A stretch of 47,340 bases of DNA, from positions 1 to 47,340 of IMG/VR virus record IMGVR_UViG_3300025568_000006; one strand, written 5' to 3'. Made by a program: the position numbers and the translations under genes. The DNA comes from a virus. Under the pieces are notes generated by a model. The model did not search any database, was not told the origin of the DNA, and worked only from the letters and a program-made list of their open reading frames with translations. Of the stretch, positions 23,547 to 47,340 are shown piece by piece. The stretch's first letter is position 1, and the number at the start of each line of letters is the position of its first letter.

Positions 23547-23574
23547 TATACTTCATGGTGTAGTTGGTTCAAAC
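23547..23574 (+). promoter_or_regulatory. Promoter-like box, early region start
   Basis: TATACT (23547-23552) is followed 15 bases later by TTCAA and then aaacataaca just before a GAAGGAG ribosome-binding site. No recognisable -35 hexamer lies 16-18 bases upstream. The same box precedes several other units (25509, 29340, 43763, 45264, 46094, 46462), which is the main support. Confidence 0.7.
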
Positions 23575-25508: not shown

Positions 25509-25531
25509 TATACTCCGCTGGCGGAGTTCAA
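25509..25531 (+). promoter_or_regulatory. Promoter-like box before the helicase gene
   Basis: CGGCTATACT ends at 25514 and TTCAA follows at 25527-25531, 12 bases after the TATACT hexamer, then an AAGGAG ribosome-binding site at 25540-25545. It belongs to the same repeated promoter family and lies immediately after the previous stop codon. Confidence 0.65.
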
Positions 25532-32098: not shown

Positions 32099-33033
32099 TG
32101 GGCGCTACGCCGGAACAGCTAGAGCGGCTGGCGCCCTACATCGCGGGCGAACAGCCAGACTACAGGGGCGAGATAGCGATGCATTGCCCGCTCCACGGGG
32201 ACGGCAAGCGCTCGGCGTCGGTCAACCCCGAGAAGGGTGTCTGGTTCTGCCATGCGGGCTGCGGCGGCGGGTCCGTCCGGCAGCTGGTCGGTGCCGAGGA
32301 CACGTGGAAGCCTGTTCCTGCCGGAGCTAAGCGGCGACCGGCGATGGCTGCTCGGAGCGTGGAGGTTCCCTTCAACACCGATGACGTTCAGCGCTGGCAC
32401 CACCGCCTGCTTGACGACAGGATGGCAATCGACCTGCTGTTTGATCGGAAGGGGATACGACTAGACACGGCGCGACGGGCGCTGCTAGGGTTCAACGGGC
32501 GGTACTTCAAGATCCCAGTGTTCTCTCCTGAGCGCGAGGTCTGGAACGTCCGCACCTATGACATGGACCCGAGCAACGGACGGCGTAAGATTTGGAGCGT
32601 CAAAGGGATGGGCGCGGCCAAGCTGTACCCAATCGGTCCGCTCACCCGGACCGTATCCGGTGAGGCTGTGCTGATCTGTGAGGGCGAGTGGGACACCCTG
32701 CTAGCTCTACAGGCCGGGGCGTGCGCTGTGACGCGAACCGATGGGGCTGGTAAGCCCTGGCATGACGAGTGGTCCCCGCTGTTCGAGAACCGCCGGGTCT
32801 ACATCTGTCCCGACCGTGATGAGGTCGGCGTTGAGAGTGCCGAACGAATGGCGGCAGCGTTGGATGGGATTGCCGCCAAGGTGAGTTTCGTCAACCTGCC
32901 ATTCGACATCACCAAGAAAGATGGCAAAGATCTGAGCGACTATCTGCTAGAGCGCGAACGCGCCGACTGGTACTTGCTTGGCAACTTGATGGCCGAGGCT
33001 AGCCCTGCCATCAGAGAGGAGCTAGCGGCATGA
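32095..33033 (+). CDS. Primase-like protein (zinc finger and Toprim)
   Basis: The GTG 32095 or ATG 32098 start overlaps the previous stop. The 312-residue protein has a DnaG-type zinc site Cys 31, His 34, Cys 52, Cys 56 (MHCPLHGD ... WFCHAGCGGG), then a domain with FKIPVFSPEREVWN and a Toprim core: LICEGEWDT with Glu 196 and YICPDRDEVG with Asp 240/242. Motif order matches phage primases lacking a helicase domain, though Toprim alone could also serve DNA binding. An RNA polymerase fold is suggested by length. Confidence 0.85.
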   Translation: MMGATPEQLERLAPYIAGEQPDYRGEIAMHCPLHGDGKRSASVNPEKGVWFCHAGCGGGSVRQLVGAEDTWKPVPAGAKRRPAMAARSVEVPFNTDDVQRWHHRLLDDRMAIDLLFDRKGIRLDTARRALLGFNGRYFKIPVFSPEREVWNVRTYDMDPSNGRRKIWSVKGMGAAKLYPIGPLTRTVSGEAVLICEGEWDTLLALQAGACAVTRTDGAGKPWHDEWSPLFENRRVYICPDRDEVGVESAERMAAALDGIAAKVSFVNLPFDITKKDGKDLSDYLLERERADWYLLGNLMAEASPAIREELAA

Positions 33034-42600: not shown

Positions 42601-43067
42601 AAAAGTTGAGCAGCGATGAGGTAGCCCAGGTGGCGCGAGCTTGCGTCGAGCACCACCAAGGCCCGGAGGAGTTCTGGAGGGCGGCGGGGCAGGACCCGGA
42701 TGCCATCCTCAAGGCGATCAAAGAGAACATGGCGTGGAACAGAAGTGCCGCCATCGACATCATTGTACTCGCGGCGATGTCACAAGGCTGGGGCATGCGA
42801 GCGGTCGCCGATGAGAACGGGGATGGCCGACCTGTATATGACAAGCTGGTAGACGTGTTGGACAGGACGAACCGCGAGTGGTACCTGTCGATCAACCATG
42901 ACCCCAACAAGGTCAGGGAGTCGCTTCGCTGGGAGGTTCGGCTCACTATTGAAAACAACGATGGCGAGCTTAAGAAGCTCCGGTCCATCAGGGAGACGCT
43001 CGACAGAGCCTGCTTTGATATCGCAAAAATGGTGGCTAGTGAAATGCTGTTAGAAGGCGCATCGTGA
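42597..43067 (+). CDS. Hypothetical protein (156 aa)
   Basis: AGAGGAG at 42587-42593 precedes ATG 42597. The helical product starts MKKLSSDEVAQVARACVEHH, then AIDIIVLAAMSQGWGMRA, and ends with a charged helix (NNDGELKKLRSIRETLDRAC). No catalytic motif was identified. It may be a regulatory or binding protein. Confidence 0.6.
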   Translation: MKKLSSDEVAQVARACVEHHQGPEEFWRAAGQDPDAILKAIKENMAWNRSAAIDIIVLAAMSQGWGMRAVADENGDGRPVYDKLVDVLDRTNREWYLSINHDPNKVRESLRWEVRLTIENNDGELKKLRSIRETLDRACFDIAKMVASEMLLEGAS

Positions 43068-43118
43068 GCCTCTACCGACACCCGCCCCGGCGTAGCCTGC
43101 GGGAGCGCCGAGCGGACG

Positions 43119-43158
43119 CCCTCCTCCCCCGTAGGGGGAGAGGCGGAGCCGGGGAGGG
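43119..43158 (+). terminator. Nested GC-rich hairpin before the resolvase gene
   Basis: CTCCCCC (43124-43130) pairs with GGGGGAG (43134-43140) around GTA, with an outer CCCTCC (43119-43124)/GGAGGG (43153-43158) partner. Its inner stem and the following GAGGCGG are almost the same as in the hairpin at 23475-23499. No T-run follows. It lies in the 106-base gap before the resolvase and includes, just after it, the GGGAGG ribosome-binding site (43162-43167). Confidence 0.55.
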
Positions 43159-43173
43159 TTCGGGAGGCTGGGA

Positions 43174-43752
43174 ATGAGTTCAACTAAGAACACCCACGCG
43201 ATACTTGCAATCGACCCCGGCGGCACCACCGGAGTAGCGGCGGGCTACATGGAGCTAGAGGAGACGCGAAGGAAGACCGTCGAAGGGATGACCAACCGAA
43301 AGTCGGTTGAGGTGACAGGCGACTATCTGGGGCAGGCGGTGAAGCTAGACAACATCTTCCGCCACTTCATCTTTACGGCGAACGTTTCCTATGGCATACC
43401 GTTGCCGAACATCCATCTGGCGATAGAGAACTTTGTGCTGCGTCGCCGTGAAGCAGGAGGGGCGACTGGCAACCTGATAAGTATCTGGGTGGCGGCGGCG
43501 TTCGCTGGCATGATGTGTAAGCACTTCACCCTGGTGGAGTCGGAAGGCGGAGCGATAGCGGTGGAGGCGCTCACCGTACTGGATGACGAACCGGCGAAAG
43601 CGATCAGCTGGCAGAACGCGAGCGATGCGAAGCACGTTGCCAACGATGAGCGCCTCAAAAGCTACGGTCTGTGGGTAGTCGGAAGTGCTCATGAGCGCGA
43701 CGCCTTCCGGCATATCGTTCTCAGAGTGGACAAGCTTCTCAGCGGCGTCTGA
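43174..43752 (+). CDS. RuvC-like Holliday junction resolvase
   Basis: GGGAGG at 43162-43167 precedes ATG 43174. The 192-residue protein starts with an RNase H fold strand THAILAIDPGGTTGVAAGY holding Asp 14, then HLAIENFVLRR with Glu 85, and near the end AHERDAFRH with Asp 176. This D-E-D arrangement and the DPGGTTGVA loop fit RuvC-like phage resolvases. It would resolve recombination junctions and branched replication products before packaging. Confidence 0.85.
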   Translation: MSSTKNTHAILAIDPGGTTGVAAGYMELEETRRKTVEGMTNRKSVEVTGDYLGQAVKLDNIFRHFIFTANVSYGIPLPNIHLAIENFVLRRREAGGATGNLISIWVAAAFAGMMCKHFTLVESEGGAIAVEALTVLDDEPAKAISWQNASDAKHVANDERLKSYGLWVVGSAHERDAFRHIVLRVDKLLSGV

Positions 43753-43762
43753 ATGAATCAGC

Positions 43763-43788
43763 TATACTTCCCTGATCTGGTCAACCCC
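43763..43788 (+). promoter_or_regulatory. Promoter-like box with GGTCAACCCC leader
   Basis: CAGCTATACTTC with TATACT at 43763-43768 is followed by 10 bases and GGTCAACCCC at 43779-43788. The same GGTCAACCCC follows the boxes at 45264 and 46094 with the same spacing. A -35 element is not clear. TGGAGG at 43791-43796 gives the ribosome-binding site for the first gene. Confidence 0.75.
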
Positions 43789-43802
43789 ACTGGAGGTCTA
43801 AT

Positions 43803-43979
43803 ATGGCTACGTATGATGTGTTTATCCGCGACGCTGATGAGTACGCTGGCGGGTTTGAAATCCGCGTTCCCGGCGTCCTTGATAAGGCCGAGGCGGAAGC
43901 TGAGGCTCTCGCGACGGCGAACGAAAACGGCGACCGTTCCTATGATGGGTCGGATGTCGGCGATATTGCGGAGGTCTAA
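43803..43979 (+). CDS. Small early protein (58 aa)
   Basis: ATG 43803 follows a TGGAGG site; the frame (MATYDVFIRDADEYAGGFEI ... DVGDIAEV) ends TAA at 43977-43979. It is acidic and has a repeated Ala/Glu helix (KAEAEAEALATANENGD). The product is too short for common cutoffs, but the promoter and site make it a good gene. No family recognised. Confidence 0.7.
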   Translation: MATYDVFIRDADEYAGGFEIRVPGVLDKAEAEAEALATANENGDRSYDGSDVGDIAEV

Positions 43980-43980
43980 C

Positions 43981-44148
43981 ATGGATGAAATCCGAATTAG
44001 CGGCGAGGCATTGAGCAACCTGATCCACTACCTGGAGTCCATCGAGGTCTGCGATGAGCTAGTGCTTCAGTCGGAAGGCGGCAGCACGCGCGCCATCGTT
44101 CACGCAGGCGGTTACGCGACGGATGAGATGACGGTCGAGGAATCATGA
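43981..44148 (+). CDS. Small early protein (55 aa)
   Basis: ATG 43981 follows the previous TAA by one base and GGAGG (43970-43974) lies upstream. The 55-residue acidic product starts MDEIRISGEALSNLIHYLES. It overlaps the ATG of the next gene by four bases. No family recognised; early position suggests host interaction. Confidence 0.65.
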   Translation: MDEIRISGEALSNLIHYLESIEVCDELVLQSEGGSTRAIVHAGGYATDEMTVEES

Positions 44149-44846
44149 AGGAGGCTACGCTCAACACCGAGTTCGGGGAGATCACGGTCGCCATACATGG
44201 CGGCGGGTACATCGGTGCGCCCAAACACACCTTGACGGCGGGCGATGTGGCAGTCCGTTTCCTGCCGCCCGGTATCGATGATCCCGAGGATCAGGCCGGA
44301 GTGCACGTGCGTCATGCGCCATCCATCGACGGCGATGAATGCGCCGCCCTCGCGCGGCTGTGCCAATTCGCGGCGCAGCTGATTGGCCTGTTCGATGAGG
44401 CGACCGCCGAGGAGCGCGCGAAGGCGGAAGCTCGGCGTGCTGAAGAAGAACAGGCGGAAGCCGAACAGCGTGAGCGCGAAGCTGAGCTAGAGGACGAACG
44501 CTCTGAGATCCTGCTTCAGGAGCTAGTCGGTGAGCGCGTCAAGGTTCGGCACCAGGGCTACAAGACGATGTGCTACGGCACGGTCCACGTGGCACCGCTG
44601 TACGGAGACCCCGACGACATCATGAAGCGCTATCCGAAAGAATACGGGGAAGAGCCGAGCAGCTACGAGCCTCTGATCAGGTACAGCGATCAGGGTGCGA
44701 CTCGGGACAGAGGGATTGGAAGCTACAAGCGTCTCGATGCGAAGACCGAGCGTGGATGGAGGACGGTCTGGGACGACGGCAAGGACGACCTGCCGGAGTT
44801 TGACCGAGCAGTAAAACTACCAAAAGTAAAACCATGGGGTGAGTGA
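44145..44846 (+). CDS. Hypothetical early protein with coiled coil (233 aa)
   Basis: ATG 44145 overlaps the upstream stop (ATGA). The N-terminal 75 residues form a beta-rich domain (GGGYIGAPKHTLTAGDVAVR), then an Ala/Glu/Arg coiled coil (ERAKAEARRAEEEQAEAEQR) and a C-terminal domain with Tyr/Trp-rich strands (VRHQGYKTMCYGTVHVAPLY). No family recognised. A scaffold or binding role is possible. Confidence 0.65.
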   Translation: MKEATLNTEFGEITVAIHGGGYIGAPKHTLTAGDVAVRFLPPGIDDPEDQAGVHVRHAPSIDGDECAALARLCQFAAQLIGLFDEATAEERAKAEARRAEEEQAEAEQREREAELEDERSEILLQELVGERVKVRHQGYKTMCYGTVHVAPLYGDPDDIMKRYPKEYGEEPSSYEPLIRYSDQGATRDRGIGSYKRLDAKTERGWRTVWDDGKDDLPEFDRAVKLPKVKPWGE

Positions 44847-45138
44847 TATGGAGGGCAACGAGATACACGAGATGTTTATGCAGCTGAATCGTGAATCGGA
44901 GGATTGGGACGGCAACGGTGACAACCCGGTGGATCAGTGGTTGACCGCTCGCGAGATCGATGGGGAGAACTTGGTTGGTTATTCCGAAGCCGTCGCCGTC
45001 AAAATCATCAGGGCCTGCGTCGAGAGAGGCGGCGTGCTCGACGTGGATGAAGTGTCGGGCCGGGTCAGCGCCGCGTTCCAGCTTGGGTTCGAGGTCGCGG
45101 CGAAGCGTTACGGCGGTCAGTCATTGCCTACGCTATGA
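44839..45138 (+). CDS. Hypothetical early protein (99 aa)
   Basis: GTG 44839 overlaps the upstream gene; ATG 44848 is an alternative start. The product is acidic (MFMQLNRESEDWDGNGDNPV) with a helical second half (VAVKIIRACVERGG, SGRVSAAFQLGFEVAAKRYG). It ends the early unit before the terminator at 45214. No family recognised. Confidence 0.6.
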   Translation: MSDMEGNEIHEMFMQLNRESEDWDGNGDNPVDQWLTAREIDGENLVGYSEAVAVKIIRACVERGGVLDVDEVSGRVSAAFQLGFEVAAKRYGGQSLPTL

Positions 45139-45213
45139 TAGTCATGCTTGGATCTCTCCTCCCAAGCCCCAACTTGCTCAAGCCAAGGGGTTGGCCAGAG
45201 CAAGAATCGCGTA

Positions 45214-45247
45214 GAGCCGTCGCCTCCCCGGTGACGGCTCTCGCTTT
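45214..45247 (+). terminator. Hairpin terminator between early units
   Basis: GAGCCGTC (45214-45221) pairs perfectly with GACGGCTC (45233-45240), with a short T-rich tail (tcgctttg). The 45139-45263 gap before it also holds a weaker inverted repeat around CCCCAACTTG/CAAGGGGTTGG (45167-45195). It separates the early operon from the promoter at 45264. Confidence 0.65.
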
Positions 45248-45263
45248 GCTGCGTTCAATCAGC

Positions 45264-45289
45264 TATACTTCATCTGGTAGGTCAACCCC
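45264..45289 (+). promoter_or_regulatory. Promoter-like box with GGTCAACCCC leader
   Basis: CAGCTATACTTC with TATACT at 45264-45269 and GGTCAACCCC at 45280-45289 repeat the 43763 box with the same 10-base gap. A ribosome-binding site AGGAAGGG follows at 45294-45301. The match between the two boxes begins several bases before TATACT. Confidence 0.75.
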
Positions 45290-45304
45290 AAACAGGAAGG
45301 GTGC

Positions 45305-45751
45305 ATGATGGCAACTAAGACGAAAAACCCCTACGTCGGCAAAGGGTCGGCAGGGCAGAACAGCCTGAGCCGCCGCGAGAAGACCGCGAAGGAGGGCAAG
45401 TGCCAGTGGTGCCACACCAAGGTACCGCTGGAGGAGCAGTTCGTCGTGTTCAATGACTTCGACAAGAAGAAGACCGTCAAGTCGAAGAACGCCGCGAAGC
45501 CGGGGCGCGAGAAGCTCTCGCACTACTGCGAGGACTGCGCCACCAAACGGCAGAAGATCAAGCAGGCTGGTGACTTCGACAAGGCGTCGGGGAAGCCGCG
45601 AGGCCGCAAGCCCGCCGCGAAGGCGAAGCCCGCTGCCAAGAGCAAGGCCAAGGCCAAGGCTGCGGCGAAGCCCGCCGCGAAGAAGCGGCGCGTCGTCAAG
45701 CGCAAGGGCAAGAAGGCCGGGTCAGCGGCCAAGAAGACCGACCCGTTCTAG
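45305..45751 (+). CDS. Zinc-finger protein with histone H1-like basic tail
   Basis: ATG 45305 or 45308. The first half has a Cys pattern CQWCHTKV ... HYCEDC, a four-ligand zinc site. The second half (about 95-148) is made of Lys, Ala and Pro repeats (AAKAKPAAKSKAKAKAAAKP) like histone H1 or bacterial H1-like tails, ending KKTDPF. The final DPF matches the SSB-like protein's tip. It may bind and compact DNA or modify host transcription early; this is inferred. Confidence 0.7.
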   Translation: MMATKTKNPYVGKGSAGQNSLSRREKTAKEGKCQWCHTKVPLEEQFVVFNDFDKKKTVKSKNAAKPGREKLSHYCEDCATKRQKIKQAGDFDKASGKPRGRKPAAKAKPAAKSKAKAKAAAKPAAKKRRVVKRKGKKAGSAAKKTDPF

Positions 45752-45755
45752 GCCG

Positions 45756-46019
45756 ATGCAAGGCGACTGGATCGACAAGCTTGCCGGGAGGCCTCTTGAT
45801 GAGGTCTCTCGGCAGGTGTTCGTAGGCAGCCTGGTTGTCGTGGCTGTGCTGCTCATCGGCTTCGCGCTGATCGGCATCGGGCGGGCGCTGGACGGCCCGC
45901 CGCCTACGGCTTATGAGTGTCGGGTCGAGTACGTTCAAGACAACGCCGATGGCATCTGGCCTGACTCGGCGGTGGATGGCAAGCTTCAGAATTGCCTACG
46001 CGAGGCTAGGCAGCGCTAG
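45756..46019 (+). CDS. Membrane protein (87 aa)
   Basis: ATG 45756, four bases after the previous stop, gives MQGDWIDKLAGRPLDEVSRQ, a single membrane helix (FVGSLVVVAVLLIGFALIGI) and an extracellular or cytoplasmic Cys-containing tail (AYECRVEYVQDNADGIWPDS ... NCLREARQR). Two cysteines in the tail could form a disulphide. It lies just before the terminator at 46049. Possible superinfection-exclusion or host-membrane role; not shown. Confidence 0.65.
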   Translation: MQGDWIDKLAGRPLDEVSRQVFVGSLVVVAVLLIGFALIGIGRALDGPPPTAYECRVEYVQDNADGIWPDSAVDGKLQNCLREARQR

Positions 46020-46048
46020 GCACACCGCCAGCAGGAGGCAGGAAGGGG

Positions 46049-46079
46049 AGGCCCGTCTACATGGCGGGCCTTTACTTTT
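46049..46079 (+). terminator. Rho-independent terminator
   Basis: AGGCCCG (46049-46055) pairs with CGGGCCT (46065-46071) around a 9-base loop and is followed by ttactttt. The -35-like TTTACT of the next promoter overlaps its T-tail. It closes the early unit of the zinc-finger and membrane proteins. Confidence 0.85.
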
Positions 46080-46119
46080 GAATGGGCTTCAGGTATACTC
46101 TTTGTATGAGGTCAACCCC
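46071..46119 (+). promoter_or_regulatory. Promoter with -35-like TTTACT and GGTCAACCCC leader
   Basis: TTTACT (46071-46076) is 17 bases before TATACT (46094-46099); GGTCAACCCC follows at 46110-46119, the third copy of this leader. This is the only member of the family with a credible -35 element. It drives a 54-residue protein through an AAGGAG site. Confidence 0.75.
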
Positions 46120-46135
46120 AAGCAAGGAGCAAGAT

Positions 46136-46300
46136 ATGACTCACGCTCAGCGCATGAACAAAACTTACGCAATGCAAATGGAGCGCCGCGATGGAAAGCG
46201 CATCGGTGTAATCGTAAAGGCTCCCAGCATGCACAGCGCAGAAGAGATAGCGATGAATGAGCATACCGATACCACCGTCAAAAGGGTTTTGATTAGGTAG
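46136..46300 (+). CDS. Small early protein (54 aa)
   Basis: AAGGAG at 46124-46129 precedes ATG 46136; the product (MTHAQRMNKTYAMQMERRDG ... VKRVLIR) is small and basic, with a strand pair RIGVIVKAPSMHS. It stands alone between a terminator and the next hairpin, behind its own promoter, typical of host-takeover genes expressed at once after entry. No family recognised. Confidence 0.65.
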   Translation: MTHAQRMNKTYAMQMERRDGKRIGVIVKAPSMHSAEEIAMNEHTDTTVKRVLIR

Positions 46301-46461
46301 ACGCGCTGCGCTCCGCTGCGGACAGCTACCGCCCGCGAGCCGGCATGAGCCGCTAGGCTCTAGGCGTCGAAGCCCGGCACCGGAGGCCCAGCCCTAGCGC
46401 TGGGTCTTCGCTATTTCCAGGGGAAATGTGGCCGTAGGTAGGCATTAGGGGTGGCAGGGGC
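46301..46461. other. Non-coding stretch before the late promoter, with hairpin
   Basis: This stretch holds no gene. CCCAGC (46387-46392) pairs with GCTGGG (46399-46404) around a 6-base loop and is followed by tcttcgctatttcc, a weak terminator for the upstream gene. The GC-rich repeats at 46300-46370 do not fold into a tRNA by eye. Confidence 0.5.
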
Positions 46462-46467
46462 TATACT
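46462..46467 (+). promoter_or_regulatory. Late promoter-like box, nearly leaderless
   Basis: GGGCTATACTTC with TATACT at 46462-46467 stands only 11 bases before ATG 46479 of the terminase small subunit. A start about 7 bases after the hexamer would leave a leader of about 5 bases and no ribosome-binding site. The downstream GGTCAACCCC is missing here, so it differs from the early boxes. Confidence 0.6.
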
Positions 46468-46478
46468 TCCACGCCCAG

Positions 46479-47144
46479 ATGGCGGGCGCGATATCTAGTC
46501 AGAAGGGCAAAGCGGGGAAAGCGAAGCGGCATCGGTACCCCTTCAAAGAGCCGGACGCCAAGTGTAACGGGCGCAAGACGTCTGATCGGGGCTACTGCAA
46601 GCAGAAGGCGGGACACAACACCTGGCACCCCGGCGTAGGCCGCTGTAGCCGCCACGGAGGCTGCTCACCAAAATACACCGCCGAGGTCTTTCGTCTACGG
46701 GCTGAGCAGGAGGTCAAGCGCTACACCTTCAAAGTCAAAACCGATCCGCACTCCGCTCTCCTTGAAGAGCTTGAACGGACGGTAGGGGTCATTCAGTTCC
46801 TGGAGACCAAGGTGAACCTCCTGGAGCATGAAGGCAAGGGCGCCAACATGGTAGGCCCGGTCGGCGGCGGTCAGGGCGGCTTCCCCGAGTACAAGCCCAA
46901 CGTTTACTGGGTCATGCTTCAGTCAGAGCGTAAGCACCTGGAAGACATCGCAGGATCCTGCATCAAGGCGGGCATCGAGGAGCGCCGGGTCCAGCTAGCG
47001 GAACGTCAGGGCGAGGCCATCGCGGCTGTGCTTAAGGGCGTGCTTGAAGAGCTTAAGATCCCCGACAAGGATTCCGAGAAGGTGCCTGGCCTAGTACGCA
47101 AACATCTGTCGCTGATCCAGGGCGGGAAGGCTGAGGCCGCGTGA
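46479..47144 (+). CDS. Terminase small subunit
   Basis: The 221-residue protein has a basic leader and a zinc site Cys 29, Cys 40, Cys 56 and His 59 (CNGRKTSDRGYC ... HPGVGRCSRHGG), a pattern I recall from terminase small subunits of actinobacterial phages. The rest is a long coiled coil (HSALLEELERTVGVIQFLET and following). The gene precedes terminase large subunit with one small gene between. DNA recognition for packaging is inferred from motif and context. The start has no ribosome-binding site. Confidence 0.75.
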   Translation: MAGAISSQKGKAGKAKRHRYPFKEPDAKCNGRKTSDRGYCKQKAGHNTWHPGVGRCSRHGGCSPKYTAEVFRLRAEQEVKRYTFKVKTDPHSALLEELERTVGVIQFLETKVNLLEHEGKGANMVGPVGGGQGGFPEYKPNVYWVMLQSERKHLEDIAGSCIKAGIEERRVQLAERQGEAIAAVLKGVLEELKIPDKDSEKVPGLVRKHLSLIQGGKAEAA

Positions 47145-47340
47145 TCCACGTCGTCATCATGTCCGACCGCGCCCGCTCGGCTCGGCTTAGCTTTGAAACC
47201 GACAGCCCAGCTGACGCCATAGCCGACGCCGTAGCTGCGTGGTTCGAGCGGAGCGACGTTGACAAGGCCAAAGCCTTCACCTTCGCGCTCCACGTTGAAG
47301 ACAGTAATGTCCGGTCGAGCCTGAGCCGAGATGACATCGC
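47141..47340 (+). CDS. Small hypothetical protein, 5' part (continues at the left end)
   Basis: GTG 47141 overlaps the TGA of the terminase small subunit gene and the frame runs to the end of the window in phase with the frame at bases 1-230, ending at TGA 228-230. The complete product is about 100 residues. The start region reads VIHVVIMSDRARSARLSFET. Family unknown. The reading frame across the join supports the circular closure. Confidence 0.75.
   Translation, partial: MIHVVIMSDRARSARLSFETDSPADAIADAVAAWFERSDVDKAKAFTFALHVEDSNVRSSLSRDDI
47214..47340. repeat. Terminal direct repeat, right copy
   Basis: Exact copy of bases 1-127; see the left copy. It should be removed once when circularising, leaving 47,213 bp. 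Confidence 0.95.

Follow-up and report, generated by a model that had tools for sequence, protein, structure and literature searches.

A candidate antisense hairpin RNA complementary to a repeated mRNA leader element in an uncultured virus

The closest described phage antisense RNAs each act on one message. The CI RNA of P4 is complementary to short sequences in transcript leaders (seqA and seqC; PMC4825925); it is processed from the leader that it controls and works by premature termination within one operon. The C4 RNA of P1 and P7 carries complementary sequences in its loops, which pair around the ribosome binding site of a phage mRNA (PMC12197685), and it targets the ant mRNA only. A short word repeated at gene starts is known from the cluster K mycobacteriophages, in which the SAS element, GGGATAGGAGCCC (13 bp), was described by Pope et al. 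2011 with its function unknown (PMC3203893). All SAS copies have one orientation, except for a single opposite copy in four phages (PMC3203893). As late as 2024 and 2025, the role of the SAS was described in papers as ill-defined or in need of verification.

The locus described here lies in a stretch of viral DNA of 47,340 nucleotides (IMG/VR record IMGVR_UViG_3300025568_000006), hereafter the window. Like the RNAs of the P4 CI and P1 C4 type, its candidate RNA is noncoding and, by prediction, highly structured, with a loop-borne stretch complementary to the leader/ribosome-binding region of phage mRNA. It differs from CI in lying at the end of an operon (operon A) and matching the leaders of separate promoters, and from C4 in matching several leaders. 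No sequence relation to the P4 CI RNA was found. No described RNA family model recognises the RNA: a search of Rfam gave no family at the gathering threshold in the window and one chance-level, unrelated match in 43000–46500, and a tRNA scan gave no matches.

The isolated-phage relatives of the terminase, DnaE-like polymerase and helicase are mostly actinobacterial phages; the window represents an uncultured virus of bacteria, with actinobacteria as probable hosts. Its ends form an exact direct repeat of 127 bp (1–127 and 47214–47340) and a 26-kb contig (L004/L040) spans the end-repeat junction, so that the genome is probably complete, circular or circularly permuted, with 47,213 bp. The length of the repeat, which is also 127 bp at the ends of the G003 and G005 contigs, may be that of an assembly overlap. 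The viral contigs searched also included another assembly of this virus. Related contigs (G001–G005 and G009–G012) were recovered by searches with DnaE, the small terminase and gene B; gene B itself has no match among isolated phages in the searched collection.

Promoters with a common leader element

A sequence-only reading of the window had picked out three promoters in which a TATACT box is followed, after a 10-base gap, by the 10-mer GGTCAACCCC. All three sites were exact and at the positions reported (Table 1). A search for TATACT-N10-GGTCAACCCC with <=3 mismatches gave three matches in the window against 0.14 expected, and no shuffle produced three. The N10 spacers of the sites are unrelated in sequence, indicating that the sites are not one copied block and that the −10 and the 10-mer are conserved with the distance between them held. 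GGTCAACCCC alone occurs in four exact copies in the window, the fourth at 32220, inside a gene and without a −10.

Table 1. Positions of the predicted promoters, leaders, genes and hairpins in the window
Feature	Position	Strand	Remarks
TATACT promoter before DUF6011 gene (23600)	23547..23552	+	same promoter type, different leader
TATACT promoter before SNF2-type helicase gene (25552)	25509..25514	+	leader AGTTCAATAT; G001 counterpart AGTCAACCCC
Promoter A, −10 TATACT	43763..43768	+	extended, AGC in front
Leader A, TCTGGTCAACCCC	43776..43788	+	10-mer at 43779–43788; 13 contiguous pairs with hairpin RNA
Gene A, 58 aa, no assigned function	43803..43979	+	first gene of operon ending at hairpin RNA
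Candidate −10 TATGAT for separate hairpin RNA	45134..45139	+	CGC in front; putative
Hairpin 1 of noncoding RNA	45146..45167	+	predicted fold
Hairpin 2, CUUGCUC-aa-GCCAA-GGGG-UUGGC-ca-GAGCAAG	45173..45204	+	carries anti-leader; predicted fold
Anti-leader GGGGTTGGCC, tetraloop and 3' arm	45187..45196	+	pairs with three leaders, one G-U
Strong hairpin followed by TTTGC	45209..45244	+	probable terminator of operon A and hairpin RNA
Promoter B, −10 TATACT	45264..45269	+	sequence match
Leader B, 10-mer GGTCAACCCC	45280..45289	+	sequence match, pairing
Gene B, 148 aa, CxxC zinc-ribbon-like, Lys/Ala-rich tail	45305..45751	+	conserved in relatives
Promoter C, −10 TATACT	46094..46099	+	TTTACT at 46071 as −35, 17-nt spacer
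Leader C, 10-mer GGTCAACCCC	46110..46119	+	sequence match, pairing
Gene C, 54 aa, no assigned function	46136..46300	+	ORF
TATACT before probable small terminase gene (46479)	46462..46467	+	nearly leaderless, no 10-mer

TATACT occurs six times in the window, always on the + strand, upstream of an ORF and with a G at −14. This G is that of a predicted extended −10 and, as predicted promoters, the six boxes are of one type, three of them carrying the 10-mer. With the plain consensus, a plausible −35 element is indeed confined to a single site, promoter C. The transcription start was placed by the usual step of 7 nt after the −10, which gives a purine at sites A, B and C (A, G and A, respectively), and the 10-mer would thus lie at about +5 to +14. 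It had been proposed to lie where transcription starts; this holds in that it is a transcribed leader element, but its predicted position is not that of the exact mRNA 5' end. In each case the 10-mer closely precedes the Shine-Dalgarno sequence and is 14–16 nt away from the start codon. The term 'early', which had been applied to these promoters, is unsupported: they adjoin terminase genes, and support was found neither for nor against the label.

Of the other three TATACT promoters, those at 23547 and 25509 have different leaders and that at 46462 has almost none. The 10-mer is absent from the window leader at 23547, whereas the orthologous gene in G001 carries GTTCAACCCC; a site matching the anti-leader is absent from the window leaders at both 23547 and 25509. 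Before the probable small terminase gene, TATACT lies ~8–11 nt upstream of the ATG in the window (46462–46481), in G002 (L059 ~1085–1104) and in G005 (L068:3477), and is replaced by TATGGT in G001 and G011. Between genes B and C lies an 87-aa ORF with a hydrophobic stretch (45756–46019), which has no Pfam or PHROG match.

The leader element recurs in relatives. In G002, TATACT-N10-GGCCAACCCC precedes the gene A ortholog and GCTTAACCCC precedes gene B. G001 has the leaders AGTCAACCCC (helicase gene) and GTTCAACCCC (DUF6011 gene), GGTCAACCCC before the gene B block, and a gene A leader, CGTCAACCCC, that lies nearer to its −10; G011 has two leader copies. A strong −10 and the leader are conserved at fixed spacing in G000, G001, G002 and G011, and a reversed control pattern gave no matches in relatives. 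Random scatter of the 10-mer in relatives, set beforehand as the observation that would count against it, was not seen, as the copies sit in leaders. This conservation supports the claim of promoters with a common transcribed leader, and we conclude from the comparison that the 10-mer is a real conserved element of the 5' leader. An exact search for TATACT-N8-12-GGTCAACCCC returned 28 viral contigs which, beyond the assembly of the same virus, had no evident promoter-gene layout, as fits chance. Among the matches listed in a scan with GCTCAAGGGGTTGRC, only the known relative G001 had a leader.

A predicted hairpin complementary to the leaders

The noncoding DNA that separates promoter B from the 96/99-aa gene (45139–45262) is predicted to form three hairpins and folds far better than its shuffles (z = −5.3, and −6.3 in a second run). 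In the fold prediction, the four G of the hairpin 2 tetraloop are unpaired with a probability of about 1. The segment containing this loop, GGGGUUGGCC (45187–45196), is the antisense of the 10-mer except for one base, which pairs as G-U. Contiguous pairing with the region extends over 10 pairs for leader B and for leader C, as well as the longer stretch of leader A. None of 200 region shuffles paired as well with the leaders, singly or as a set, in the window, and likewise 0/200 did so with the leader sets of G001 and G011. When all sense-strand segments of 120 nt were ranked, the hairpin region came first as a leader partner in both the window and G011, and second in G001. A contiguous-helix score replaced RNAduplex for ranking the leaders, internal loops having inflated the RNAduplex background. 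No word clearly stood out in the window when 8-mer enrichment was limited to strict Watson–Crick pairs, since the pairing there includes a G-U.

For clade I the evidence consists of three related sequences, of which two have nearly the same hairpin; G001 and G011 keep the order of upstream gene, GGGG-loop hairpin, terminator, promoter and leader. Their hairpin, CGATGCTCAA-GGGG-TTGACATCG, differs from that of the window, a C-G pair of the loop-closing stem being replaced by U-A, and its loop and arm are exactly antisense to GTCAACCCC. The contigs of G002, G009 and G012 do not include the hairpin region and are outside this comparison; that of G002 breaks in the hairpin/terminator region (L061 end / L059 start). 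The terminator loop in G001 (L058 reverse strand, ~46850) and G011 (L074 ~1960) also reads GGTTGACTG, which is complementary to CAGTCAACC in the helicase leader of G001 and to CAGTCAAC upstream of its gene B, making it a possible second pairing loop. The candidate −10 for a separate RNA overlaps the stop codon of the 96/99-aa gene. A similar TANNNT is found in the same place in G001, G011, G003, G004 and G010, which partly reflects stop codons often beginning with TA.

In more distant relatives, both leader and loop differ. The G003/G004 leaders (group II) have TAGCNT-N10, with CAAGC across the junction, and extra GCCAAGCA copies lie beside Shine-Dalgarno sequences. A hairpin at the same genomic place has a 12-nt loop holding UGCUUGGC, which matches the leaders GUCAAGCA/GCCAAGCA; a compensatory pair distinguishes the stems, whereas the loop core is unchanged. 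In group III (G010), the loop region UGCGGGAUCGG matches GAUCCCGCA/CCGAUCCCG and fits both leaders, GATCCCGCA and CCGATCCCG. Loop-complementary sites were enriched in leader zones in 6/6 genomes tested (p 0.0014 to 0.03; the G010 test counts overlapping words twice), and leaders paired best, on average, with the RNAs of their own group. Pairing in G003 was not significant, being equalled by 112/200 region shuffles and 13.5% of genome windows; it was marginal in G004 (24/200 shuffles and 1.4% of windows as good) and in G010 (8/200 and 3.6%). With motifs that were chosen after looking, the different leaders and fitting loops of groups II and III are suggestive of the same pairing.

A parallel in cluster K mycobacteriophages

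The SAS resembles the window's word in being short and non-palindromic, lying at gene starts in one orientation, and occurring only once in antisense in several of the phages (PMC3203893). Correspondingly, the window has three sense leader copies and one antisense copy, the latter with its one differing, G-U pairing base and in noncoding hairpin DNA. The two words are unrelated, as the SAS includes the Shine-Dalgarno core and lies 3–7 bp from the start, whereas the window word lies further upstream. Matches to the SAS in the window were not beyond chance (one 2-mismatch match vs 1.36 expected).

Within 20000–59600 of Adephagia there are 16 sense SAS copies (<=2 mismatches) and one antisense copy, located between genes 92 and 93 in a gap of 432 nt. 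There it forms the unpaired apical loop of a predicted 20-bp hairpin (~58,660–58,713; L130:38661–38714). Covariation across eight relatives supports this hairpin: 88.7% of cells are paired and seven pairs have changed on both sides; none of 500 shuffles reached the covariation score and slid controls were 32–52% paired. This set favours the hairpin, its sequences having been hand-trimmed to it and one of its members having supplied the structure. Five Adephagia-type phages share an invariant loop core, CCTCCTATCCC. Amgine, Syra333 and TClif have an altered loop in which pairing with the SAS is interrupted (−16 to −20 kcal/mol vs −22), and the search did not find the hairpin in five other relatives (Marshawn, Hurricane, Yuna, MacnCheese and LeMond). 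According to a 2024 paper, the gap between genes 92 and 93 of Adephagia appears to be where late transcription starts (PMC11373665), and the hairpin may therefore be part of the late leader. A literature search found no report of an SAS hairpin in Adephagia. Adephagia provides an independent parallel to the leader-hairpin arrangement of the window.

Proposed antisense pairing and its alternatives

We consider it fairly probable that GGTCAACCCC is the 5'-leader target of a phage-encoded antisense RNA acting on several phage mRNAs. The sequence itself shows that the sites exist and are conserved, that a hairpin is predicted, and that it is complementary to the leaders, with a better fit to those of its own group than to those of other groups. 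We infer that the RNA is transcribed, pairs with its targets in infected cells and represses them. The RNA would arise from the noncoding stretch 45139–45245, which could have a promoter of its own or be transcribed as the 3' end of operon A. Hairpin 2 is predicted to be stable alone (−17.1 kcal/mol), so that pairing needs a loop-first route: the apical-loop GGGG would contact the leader CCCC, and pairing would then run into the 3' arm to give 10–13 bp. The duplex would lie ~15–25 nt upstream of the start codon, beside the Shine-Dalgarno sequence and within the ribosome footprint; the likeliest result would thus be less translation (or cleavage) of the gene A, B and C messages in trans, controlling their timing or dosage. 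The nearly leaderless small-terminase message would escape such an RNA. The suggestion that the 10-mer is the target of a phage regulator is supported by the conserved leader, although the regulator is likely to be the antisense RNA rather than an unspecified DNA-binding factor.

In the main rival reading, a phage repressor or activator binds the 10-mer as a DNA operator, placed just past the start site and with an inverted copy upstream of promoter B. This we judge improbable. The position at +5 to +14 suits an operator, and so does the mostly fixed N10 spacing, but the distance between −10 and leader falls to N5–N6 in two leaders, and some G003/G004 sites adjoin a Shine-Dalgarno sequence with no −10 nearby, which fits an RNA target better than promoter DNA. 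Co-variation of all copies between groups would also be expected of an operator with one inverted copy; however, the additional copy is in every case antisense and located in the loop of a hairpin that precedes a terminator-like or second strong hairpin, and the one base that differs in the window's anti-leader still pairs in RNA. Furthermore, Pfam reveals no helix-turn-helix or integrase in most non-structural genes, many of the small proteins matching nothing. The stoperators of cluster A mycobacteriophages are likewise asymmetric sites repeated within one phage genome, but they are DNA sites for a repressor. Their consensus, GGTGGMTGTCAAG, is not the window's word: it has no exact match in the window, and of six matches with 1–2 mismatches on both strands (2 expected) none is at these leaders.

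Marginally less probable still is that promoter and leader form one cis element (a downstream promoter element, a translation enhancer or a 5'-end stabiliser), with no trans regulator and a coincidental antisense hairpin. Such an element would account for the fixed spacing of −10 and leader in clade I and G002, but not for the hairpin region ranking genome-wide as first partner in the window and G011 and as second in G001, nor for the joint change of leader and loop in other groups. That the anti-leader acts in cis only, operon A read-through folding it onto leader B and silencing gene B as read-through protection, fits the arrangement of the two, which lie 84 nt apart on one strand, anti-leader first, and are separated by a terminator-like hairpin, but is very improbable, as it leaves unexplained the identical leaders at promoters A and C and the like leaders at the G001 helicase and DUF6011 promoters.

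Antisense control remains the preferred reading, on which this virus probably controls several of its genes at once through a small RNA that it encodes. If true, the matching of many leaders by one hairpin would place a set of operons under the control of one RNA, and paired mutations could change the leader-loop code. It is possible, and we propose it only tentatively, that several actinobacterial phage groups independently use such a switch of one hairpin and many leaders, in which word and loop co-evolve to give each group a private code; the SAS would then be one case, with a hairpin in the late transcript turning off the SAS genes. The SAS elements of cluster K would thereby gain a concrete hypothesis, testable in Mycobacterium smegmatis.
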